Positions 53,611-55,586 of a stretch of DNA of 64,000 nt are shown here, in pieces. Under the pieces are notes generated by a model. That model did no database searches. It had not been told where the DNA came from and was given only the letters and a program-made list of their open reading frames with translations. Every line of letters starts with the position of its first letter. The stretch's first letter is position 1. The translations under genes were made by a program, and so were the position numbers. This stretch comes from an uncultured Flavobacteriales bacterium (lineage in GTDB: Bacteria > Bacteroidota > Bacteroidia > Flavobacteriales_D > Parvicellaceae): NCBI GenBank assembly GCA_943788755.1, contig CALSRM010000003.1, positions 310,001 through 374,000 of the forward strand. Direction: 5' to 3'.

Positions 53611-53641
53611 CAGCTAAAAAACCGACCCGCTGCGCGGGTTA
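53611..53641 (-). terminator. Terminator of the surface-protein unit
   Basis: On the minus strand AACCCGCGCAGCGGGTCGG folds into a six-base GC stem with a short loop and is followed by TTTTTTAGC. About 95 bases after the stop at 53734. Confidence 0.8.
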
Positions 53642-53647
53642 TTTAGT

Positions 53648-53676
53648 AAACTCTATGCCCTACGGGACAAAGAGTT
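53648..53676 (-). other. Hairpin downstream of the putative DGR variable region
   Basis: Minus strand AACTCTTTG...CATAGAGTT: an 11-base stem with one mismatch and a four-base loop, ~58 bases after the stop codon. A hairpin or cruciform just 3' of the variable region is a known aid to DGR homing. A plain mRNA-end structure is the alternative. Confidence 0.55.
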
Positions 53677-53733
53677 AAAGTGTCAAATCATCGCTGCTAT
53701 CAGGGAACTAACTCGCTAACGCTGCGTTTAGGG

Positions 53734-54826
53734 TTAATCCTTGAGGCAACGCACAGAGTTTCCGCCCGCTCGGGTGCTGTCGCCCATGTAGGCATCGATG
53801 CCGTCGAAGTAGAGGACGCGCGAGAGAGCGCCACTAACCGTACTGCTCCAATAGTAGCCGTAGGTACCGACATAGTTGAGCGAACCATTGCTGCCGCTGC
53901 GGTAGCCCGCCATGGGCAATTTAAGCGGGTGAGGCTATAGCCCCCACCGCTGTATTGTGCACTGCTCCAGCTTAAACGCTCTGCCTCTAACTCTGCTTCT
54001 GTAGGGAAACGGTAGCCACTTGGACATGGATTGTTTATACCATTTACGCCTTGCCATAAATTGTCGTTTTGTGGGCTGCGCCAATCGTAATTACCTGAAT
54101 TTACGGTTATAAAATCACCATGAGCAGGTTGGTCTGTGCTGCTTAGCGCTGGGTTAGTTGCTGAGGTGCGACACTGGTGTCCATCACTAAACCTACCCCA
54201 TTGGTACAAATCGCCATAAGCATCCACATCGGTGCTGCTTGTAGCTGCTTGCGTAGCTCCCAAATTACGGTCCATCCATATTGCTCCAGTTGTAGGGTTG
54301 GTTACATCTACTATCGCGGTAGGTGTGCCGTTACAAAATACTGAGCCTGTTGGATAGGTTCCGCCTCCGCCCCTCCAGCTGTAGTTGTAAAACTAACTTC
54401 ATTGCCATAAGCTGTACCTGCACTGTTGGTTGCGTAAGCGCGTGCGTAATATGTTGTACTTGCTGCTAAACCCGTAAGGTTGCTAACAAAACTCCCCGTA
54501 CCGCTGCCATCATTAGTGGTGCTATTGGCAGTAGTTGGGTTAGTTGATGTGCCATAGCAGACTCCTCTTTGCGTTACTGTGCTGCCTCCATCAGCGGTTA
54601 TATTTCCACCTAAGGTTGCTGATGCAGTAGTTACATTGCTTGCGTTTGTTGTTGTTAGCGTAGCCAAATTACCTGGATTGGGTATGGTATAGGTTATGCT
54701 ATCAATCGTATTTAGTGGTATTTGAAGCACTGTACCATTACTTTGGTGTATGTTCATTATAGTTTGTGCGCTCAGTAGTGTTGAACTCATAAATAGCACT
54801 GCTAAGAGTATAATTCTTGGTTTCAT
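53734..54826 (-). CDS. Secreted Fib_succ_major-domain protein with a DGR-like variable C-terminus, two frameshifts
   Basis: About 364 residues after correction. Signal peptide (IILLAVLFMSSTLLSAQ), a small N-terminal part with PLNTIDSITYTI, a fibronectin-like Thr/Ser domain (ATLGGNITADGG, STTYYARAYATNSAGT), then a Fib_succ_major / C-type-lectin-like domain (IWMDRNLGATQ, YQWGRFSDGHQ, CPSGYRFPTEAEL) ending NSVRCLKD. Frame breaks at ~54361-54376 (inside Gly codons before GTYPTGSVF) and ~53918-53924 (one A short before LPMAGYR). The last ~50 codons are NNC-rich, the pattern of adenine mutagenesis of AAC codons. No T9SS sorting domain follows. Eleven bases after the upstream small surface gene, so it is probably co-transcribed. 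Confidence 0.8.
53737..53910 (-). other. Putative DGR variable region (VR)
   Basis: From the Tyr codon at 53902-53904 through 53758, 31 of 49 codons end in C, and in 53773-53820 (RVLYFDGIDAYMGDST) 14 of 16 do. G+C there is about 60 % by hand count, far above the genome. The 3' end TCTGTGCGTTGCCTC AAGGAT (53737-53757) is not NNC-like and would be the invariant tail. This is what mutating A in AAC repeats gives. No template repeat is seen in the window. Confidence 0.75.
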
Positions 54827-54837
54827 ACGCTAATTTT

Positions 54838-55345
54838 TTATTGTTTAATTACTTGTTTTGTTATCGAATTGTATTTACCCGAAATACGGCAAACGTAAGT
54901 TCCATTTGGCATATCTATTAGGTCAAGCATTTCCTGATGGCTACCAAATGATTTATTTCCTAAAGCCTTTAATAAAATCTGTTTCCCTTGCATGTCATAC
55001 AATCCAATAGAAACTTCGTCTTCTTTTGGCATATTAAAACGAATATTTAAAGTGGTACTTGTTGGGTTCGGATAAACTGCAACCTCCCAAGAATTAGCAT
55101 CATTCAACCATTCTTGAACGTTTATAGAAGATTCATCGTATTGGTAATGACCAATAGTACTGACATTCCATGCGTATAAACTTCCATCAAGCATATGTAA
55201 ATTCATTACATCTGCATCAAACGTTATTTTGCGCAGGTCTTCCAAGTTATAAGCTGATTCGTGCCATCTATTAATTAAAATGGATGCTCTGCGCATTACC
55301 AATTCCAACAATTCCAATAAATAAGAGTAGTAGTAGTTTTTTCAT
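54838..55345 (-). CDS. Small T9SS-exported surface protein, one frameshift
   Basis: About 169 residues after correction, starting at the ATG at 55343-55345 (signal MKKLLLLLFIGIVGIGNAQ). One extra T near 55276-55281 breaks the frame before NRWHESAYNLEDLRKITF. The C-terminal ~75 residues are a T9SS type A sorting domain: VAVYPNPTSTTLNIRF, GLYDMQGKQIL, MPNGTYVCRI. Its N-terminal NLEDLRKITF resembles LNTIDSITY of the next gene, so both may share a small N-terminal domain. First gene of a two-gene unit with the DGR-like target. Confidence 0.75.
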
Positions 55346-55586
55346 AAGTTAATAGCTTAATCTAAGGCAAGTTAATAATATTTCAATCCAATACGTATAT
55401 TTACAATTAAAATATCTTGAACTACTATTCATTTGCCTATTCTCTCGACCTACATCTTGGAAGTATGAGAAATCTAAATGGAGAAGGAAGTGGGGTAAGT
55501 AGATGCTGGAAAAGTAAGGAGATTGCCACTTGAGTATGGGTTATATGGGATGAAATAGTCCCTGTTTAGTCCCCTGTAAAAAACAA
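55346..55586. other. Non-coding stretch next to tRNA-Leu
   Basis: I find no plausible gene here. It is AT-rich at its left end; short ORFs run through it but have no signal of selection. No direct repeat of the tRNA 3' end was noticed that would mark an attachment site. Confidence 0.5.

Follow-up and report, generated by a model that had tools for sequence, protein, structure and literature searches.

A variable region of diversity-generating retroelement type in a frameshifted Fib_succ_major-type gene of a Parvicellaceae bacterium, probably an orphaned or decaying remote target

The diversity-generating retroelement (DGR) of Bordetella phage BPP-1 carries its template repeat (TR), reverse transcriptase (RT), Avd, and variable region (VR) together. 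Fib_succ_major and DUF1566 domains are among the DGR targets reported in the sections of PMC4159848 used here, and in cyanobacteria dispersed remote targets as well as remnants without an RT are described in the portion of PMC7517822 on which we draw. A large DGR survey states, in the excerpt consulted, that its own approach would miss remote targets (PMC8144416). The locus described here belongs to an uncultured Flavobacteriales bacterium of the Parvicellaceae (genome G000; 3.17 Mb in 5 contigs, 97.44% complete), and we call the whole 64,000-nucleotide stretch that was analyzed (G000:C3:310001-374000) the window. An earlier note on this DNA had read the 3' end of a Fib_succ_major-type gene as a DGR VR served in trans by a machine elsewhere in the same genome. 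We hold the stretch to be a true DGR VR, now most probably in the state of an orphaned or decaying remote target.

The variable region and its adenine-limited differences

The VR occupies 53737..53910 on the minus strand, which from 53910 to 53737 reads AGYRSGSNGSLNYVGTYGYYWSSTVSGALSRVLYFDGIDAYMGDSTRAGGNSVRCLKD, and is recognized by its NNC codons together with a bias of its mismatches toward the adenines of a TR in another genome, G273. The TR-homologous part spans about 53743-53910 (minus strand) and ends in the IMH-like CGTTGCCTCAAGGATT. C-ending codons make up 34 of the 58 codons of the VR and 14 of 16 within 53773-53820, at a G+C content of 0.60, so the NNC-filled 3' end pointed out earlier is borne out; the count of 31 in 49 given then refers to a shorter stretch. 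The window-wide NNC fraction is 0.136 over the 45 stop-to-stop frames that reach 200 codons, some of which may not be genes, and the highest count in 1509 sampled 49-codon segments is 16. Codons ending in A or T account for 15/58 of the VR, for 66/108 and 104/148 of the two gene parts before it, and for 65-83% in seven neighbor genes, which agrees with the earlier description; the rise in G+C is gentler than was stated there, since the upstream gene parts (0.48 and 0.42) already lie above the neighbors (0.34-0.39).

The VR terminates at the stop codon of its reading frame. Its 3' flank (53617..53736, minus strand), common to the paralogues and 15-21% different over 130 nt, holds two hairpins at about 53649-53676 and 53625-53639, roughly 60-110 nt beyond the stop codon, which may be terminators. 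A hairpin downstream had been anticipated and two are present, folding only slightly better than shuffled sequence (z -1.6; 14 of 200 shuffles fold as well). A VR query and a core-pattern search found no second VR copy and no TR within the window, the latter as first noted.

Three close relatives of the window VR are present elsewhere in the genome, at C3:1204k, C4:60k, and C3:861k, with one diverged copy at C3:39k. Matches occur in 5 of 150 related genomes, the own genome included: G000, G003, G075, G100, and, weakly, G001 (51 bp, E 2e-5). The copy in G003, a member of the same genus, is the presumed orthologue of C4:60k in conserved synteny and is likewise frameshifted. The VR family comprises four or more targets scattered over G000 and another in a species of the same genus, apparently written from a common template, and similar nucleotide modules are present in other Bacteroidota metagenome-assembled genomes (MAGs).

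When the window VR, its three close relatives, and the G003 copy are aligned, 54 of 150 core columns vary, falling 25/24/5 on the three codon positions, and 32 columns vary in the 150 nt upstream, falling 7/4/21. Adenine occupies 8 of 96 invariant columns in the VRs vs 36 of 118 upstream. This column pattern is the trace expected of A-directed rewriting of AAC codons. The 3' end is near-invariant, with 1 of 24 columns varying.

Searches of this genome and of three more from the same genus gave no TR, so the TRs used for testing belong to genomes of other families or orders. Aligned without gaps to the G273 TR, the window VR has mismatches at 30 of 56 template adenines and at 14 of the remaining 111 positions (p 3.4e-8; this and the other A-bias p-values treat sites as independent). 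The corresponding counts are 31/56 and 13/111 for C3_861k, 32/56 and 11/111 for C3_1204k, 27/55 and 15/110 for C4_60k, and 19/52 and 9/108 for G003, with p from 1e-10 to 3e-5 over the five. The TR of G188 gives the window VR the same counts as that of G273 (30/56 A, 14/111 non-A), the TR of G558 gives 29/52 and 26/115, and a TR-like copy at locus L080 gives 21/47 and 9/101. All six TR-TR comparisons are free of A bias (p 0.64-0.96), and the C3_39k paralogue, taken as a control, is weak and not clean (p 0.06, 0.02, 0.08, and 0.04 against the G273, G188, L080, and G558 TRs). The bias against the G273 TR recurs in 15/15 further VR-like stretches chosen from fetched loci (p 1e-8 to 1e-3) and, against the L080 copy, in 13 of 14 VR candidates, the exception being L024 of G001 (21/46 vs 45/100), where the alignment probably lies outside the VR.

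The five VRs vary among themselves at 39 of the 56 template-A positions and 15 of the 112 others; 8/56 template adenines are unmutated in all five, and at 11 non-A positions all five depart alike from the G273 TR. Every one of the 10 VR pairs differs mainly at template-A positions (p 9e-6 to 6e-13), the window and C3_861k at 31/56 vs 6/112. At non-A positions 6 of 10 pairs are significantly more alike than in the 400 nt upstream (p<0.05), for example C3_1204k and G003 (0.9% against 13.7%) or the window and G003 (3.6% against 14.8%); the pairs not reaching this level are window-C3_861k (5.4% vs 5.1%), window-C4_60k, C3_861k-C4_60k, and C4_60k-G003. The greater likeness within the VR is what overwriting from a single template would give, C4_60k being the copy in which decay has gone furthest, and protein constraint could contribute to the low non-A divergence.

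The host gene as assembled

As assembled the gene is frameshifted, a point missed in the earlier note. The frame of the VR differs from that of the upstream open reading frame (ORF): the ORF at 53700-54275 crosses the VR out of register, and between this ORF and the one at 54311-54826 lies a second break, so that the VR and the two ORFs occupy three different frames. The target gene is therefore broken in the assembly and does not form an intact surface-protein gene there. The breaks appear close to short G and C runs; should the frameshifts prove to be errors of assembly, the gene may be intact.

The ORF at 53700..54275 (minus strand) carries the conserved part of the Fib_succ_major (FISUMP) domain (PF09603, E 0.0047, under the curated cut-off). 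That at 54311..54826 (minus strand) is the N-terminal part of the same broken gene, with a start that by eye resembles a signal peptide, and it has no nucleotide match to the N-termini of the paralogues. Directly upstream, an ORF at 54838..55317 (minus strand) encodes a Por_Secre_tail, the type IX secretion sorting domain (PF18962, E 1.9e-14), and upstream lies a 216-nt piece at 55284..55499 (minus strand) with a signal-peptide-like start, repeated at 98.6% identity upstream of the C3_861k and C3_1204k targets. Beyond this shared piece the sequence diverges into a frame with an early stop, and the end of the piece is likely a recombination junction, to judge by where the copies part.

Only at C3_861k does a single open gene (488 aa) include the VR in frame, at its end, and 53617-54346 is 87.8% identical to that gene and its 3' flank. 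The C3_1204k and C4_60k targets are frameshifted, so that with the window copy 3 of the 4 own targets are broken. The G558 target exceeds the Fib_succ_major cut-off, and the window ORF, the G273 target, and C3_861k, scanned alone, fall under it. A structure model of the FISUMP domain from 7 sequences has a mean pLDDT of 36.6, and no PDB sequence match to the target domain was found at E 0.1. By its family, the Fib_succ_major-type target would have a C-type-lectin-like fold and bind a ligand.

Retroelement cassettes in related genomes and in this one

Three genomes carry cassettes that, by sequence, we assign to the VR lineage of the window. G273 (locus L108) has a target cut by the contig end, a 159-aa accessory protein, an RT of 415 aa, Avd, and a TR at L108:7247-7414 on the minus strand; G558 has a target with two VRs, an RT, Avd, and a TR; and G188 has an RT, Avd, and a TR, its VR gene not being on the contig. 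The RTs of all three are of the LPIGNLTSQ type and Avd exceeds the PF22296 cut-off in each. The G273 VR departs from its own TR at 27/56 adenines and 0/112 other positions, and the second VR of G558 from its own at 22/52 and 0/116. These TRs beside DGR RTs, together with the A-limited repeats in the own genome, uphold the identification of the stretch as the DGR VR of a Fib_succ_major-type gene. The accessory protein of G273 (L108:9116-9595), which sits between target and RT, matches MutS domain I at E 0.003, below the cut-off.

A partial cassette occurs at L129 (G404:C82, a 4.1-kb contig), with the end of a Fib_succ_major-like target, an Avd that passes the PF22296 cut-off, the start of an RT, and a TR-like stretch at 1818-1976 that is 72% like the G273 TR; from its gene order G404:C82 looks like a DGR layout, and the same genome carries the VR of L079. 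At L080:155-334 (minus strand; G405, a Flavobacterium MAG), an A-rich TR-like copy lies between the VR gene and a thioredoxin-like gene, with no RT found between the two genes. A thioredoxin-like gene follows a VR or TR in five genomes (L018:3662-4771, L030, L076, L080, and L108:3106-4545): it stands 3' of the VR at C4_60k, in G003, and at L076, and in G273 it is found past the TR, from which three genes separate it. The gene is identified by Pfam Thioredoxin_8 in G273 and at C4_60k and by sequence likeness in the others. This shared neighbor would be explained if RT, Avd, and TR had been lost from the interval between the VR gene and the thioredoxin-like gene.

In the own genome the only RT recovered with PF00078 is a 213-aa C-terminal half (G000:C3:832265-832903), 67% identical to one DGR lineage (RT of 416 aa) and 47% to the G273 RT. 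At L015:6263-12512 (G000:C3:832k-838k) it lies downstream of Por_Secre-like and Lcl_C target-like genes with three others between, the Lcl_C match being below the Pfam cut-off. Since this is the order found in the cassettes of the 67%-identical lineage, the half RT is probably what remains of a second, broken DGR. Its relatives occur in 23 of 399 sampled genomes of the order, the own included, and in 59 phage records, all at <60% identity.

When 12 loci with such RT relatives were compared with themselves, 7 showed a clear A-limited TR/VR pair. Mismatches fell at TR adenines (read as T at minus-strand loci) in 18/19 cases at L056, 25/26 at L058, 24/25 at L059, 19/20 at L060, 35/35 at L061, 30/31 at L062, and 25/28 in the best of several pairs at L064. 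L057 has a diverged pair with 27/44 mismatches at A of one copy, and self-comparison of L063, L065, L066, and L067 gave no pair, a TR at L067 being found later.

A VR query and a core-pattern search of the own genome found no TR, and both recovered all five VR-like places. The G273 TR as query was silent in four same-genus genomes, but of the four VRs known in the own genome it recovered only one strongly, which makes its silence a weak test. No full-length DGR-clade RT was found in four same-genus assemblies, the own genome having only the C-terminal half, and no convincing Avd; the sole PF22296 match in the own genome (E 0.1, L124) contains 4 stops and was rejected as an Avd relic. What had been supposed, a working DGR acting in trans within this genome, is thus not supported: searches of the assembly gave neither a TR nor a convincing Avd, and the single RT they gave is truncated and belongs to another sublineage. 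An RT and a repeat with A-limited differences had been expected elsewhere in the genome: the repeats are there as other VRs, but the TR and a full RT were not found.

The G273 RT, searched in nine genomes, matched in three: G000 (the fragment), G273, and G404 (partial, at a contig end). No DGR RT of the window lineage was found in the VR carriers G399, G401, and G405, all MAGs. Among the other carriers of the core pattern, PF00078 matches occurred in 3 of 7 genomes and the LPIGNLTSQ motif at none of the scanned loci. A scan of genome contigs for relatives of the RT returned 65 pattern stretches, none of which was confirmed.

An orphaned target or one still written

If the VR arose as in described DGRs, a TR of mostly AAC/AAT codons would be transcribed, the DGR RT would misread the adenines of the transcript, and the mutated cDNA would overwrite the 3' end of a Fib_succ_major-type surface protein gene (mutagenic retrohoming), the dispersed targets apparently having been written from one common template whose cognate cassette was then lost. 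That a DGR wrote the window VR we hold to be nearly certain; granted that, it is quite probable that the VR is now orphaned in its own genome. Because the assembly yielded no cognate machine and three of the four targets have frameshifts, the window copy is most likely a remote target that has been orphaned or is in decay. We infer that writing in this lineage was A-directed, that the cassette was lost, and that the product has a surface or ligand-binding role.

The strongest competitor, which we consider rather unlikely, is a DGR that is alive in the population and writes the VRs in trans from a TR/RT cassette in an unassembled part, on another replicon, or in some cells. Room for such a cassette exists, the assembly being 97.44% complete and the other same-genus genomes 82-94%. 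Between C4_60k and G003, which are presumed to be orthologues, 19/49 template adenines and 9/112 other VR positions differ (flanks 33/396 and 17/397), so that, barring conversion of one copy by a paralogue, writing persisted past the separation of the species. Furthermore, all eight bases missing from the five VRs (7 from G003, 1 from C4_60k) fall at template-A positions (p 1.5e-4, given 56 adenines among 168 template positions and a gap placement that depends on the alignment); if the DGR is live, these single-base deletions would be consensus errors where reads disagree. Against this stand the fruitless searches for a TR, a full RT, and a convincing Avd in four same-genus assemblies, the indels of the target gene outside the VR, and searches of phages (with the G273 TR), plasmids (with the window VR), and viral contigs (with the VR core pattern), all without a match.

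A-site deletions of this kind are unusual: in all seven cassettes that gave a clear pair on self-comparison, the best TR/VR pair aligns without gaps; one further pair at L064 has 9 gap columns, and the C3_1204k VR has one inserted base. They could come from consensus errors at polymorphic sites or from RT errors. Insertions and deletions inside AAC repeats are ascribed to slippage in multiples of three in the section of PMC12875486 used here, whereas the losses in these VRs are of single bases and not in multiples of three. It is doubtful that the VRs are still written by a DGR outside the assembled chromosome, on another replicon or in a subpopulation, with the A-site losses either as -1 deletion products of the RT, visible because the frame no longer matters, or as the consensus trace of a living polymorphism.

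That ordinary positive selection and gene conversion diversified a family of surface-protein paralogues without any retroelement is very improbable. The module is common to several paralogues, and unlike N-termini together with a repeated upstream piece suggest recombination, but third codon positions scarcely vary in the VRs, the invariant columns avoid A, and the changes fall at adenines of TRs that adjoin DGR RTs in other genomes, a pattern that the C3_39k paralogue shows weakly. Least probable of all is that the high-GC codon run reflects only foreign DNA or composition drift. The similar modules in other Bacteroidota MAGs make horizontal spread plausible and the upstream gene part is also richer in G+C than its neighbors, but foreign origin alone leaves differences concentrated at template adenines between copies in one genome without an account, and the mismatch counts already contradict this reading.

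The locus shows that neither TR nor RT is needed to recognize a DGR target, since position-limited differences among its dispersed copies suffice. One genome here holds four targets, of which one is intact, so that the writing can be dated against flanks and a same-genus species, and deletions at template adenines are a testable question raised by these VRs.

As far as the consulted parts of PMC4159848 go, the locus resembles the Fib_succ_major DGRs in its target type, the VR at the 3' end, and A-to-N differences to a TR, and the G273, G188, and G558 cassettes resemble them also in their LPIGNLTSQ-type RT with Avd, but the targets in the own genome stand alone at four dispersed loci, with a TR, a convincing Avd, and a complete RT not found. 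The likeness to the Bordetella phage BPP-1 element is by analogy, in A-specific mutagenic retrohoming as treated in the portion of PMC12875486 used here. TR, RT, Avd, and VR are not together in this genome, unlike in BPP-1. The cyanobacterial case, in the portion of PMC7517822 consulted, is alike in its dispersed variable-protein paralogues, in a C-lectin domain that is joined to N-terminal domains of several kinds, in TR-VR homology that survives as a remnant with no RT close by, and in a degraded cassette of which only the RT is left; it differs in phylum and target family, and here no TR was found in the assembly, copies are frameshifted, and intact TRs sit in other taxa. Dispersed DGR targets and RT-less remnants were already known, and the window VR adds another such case.
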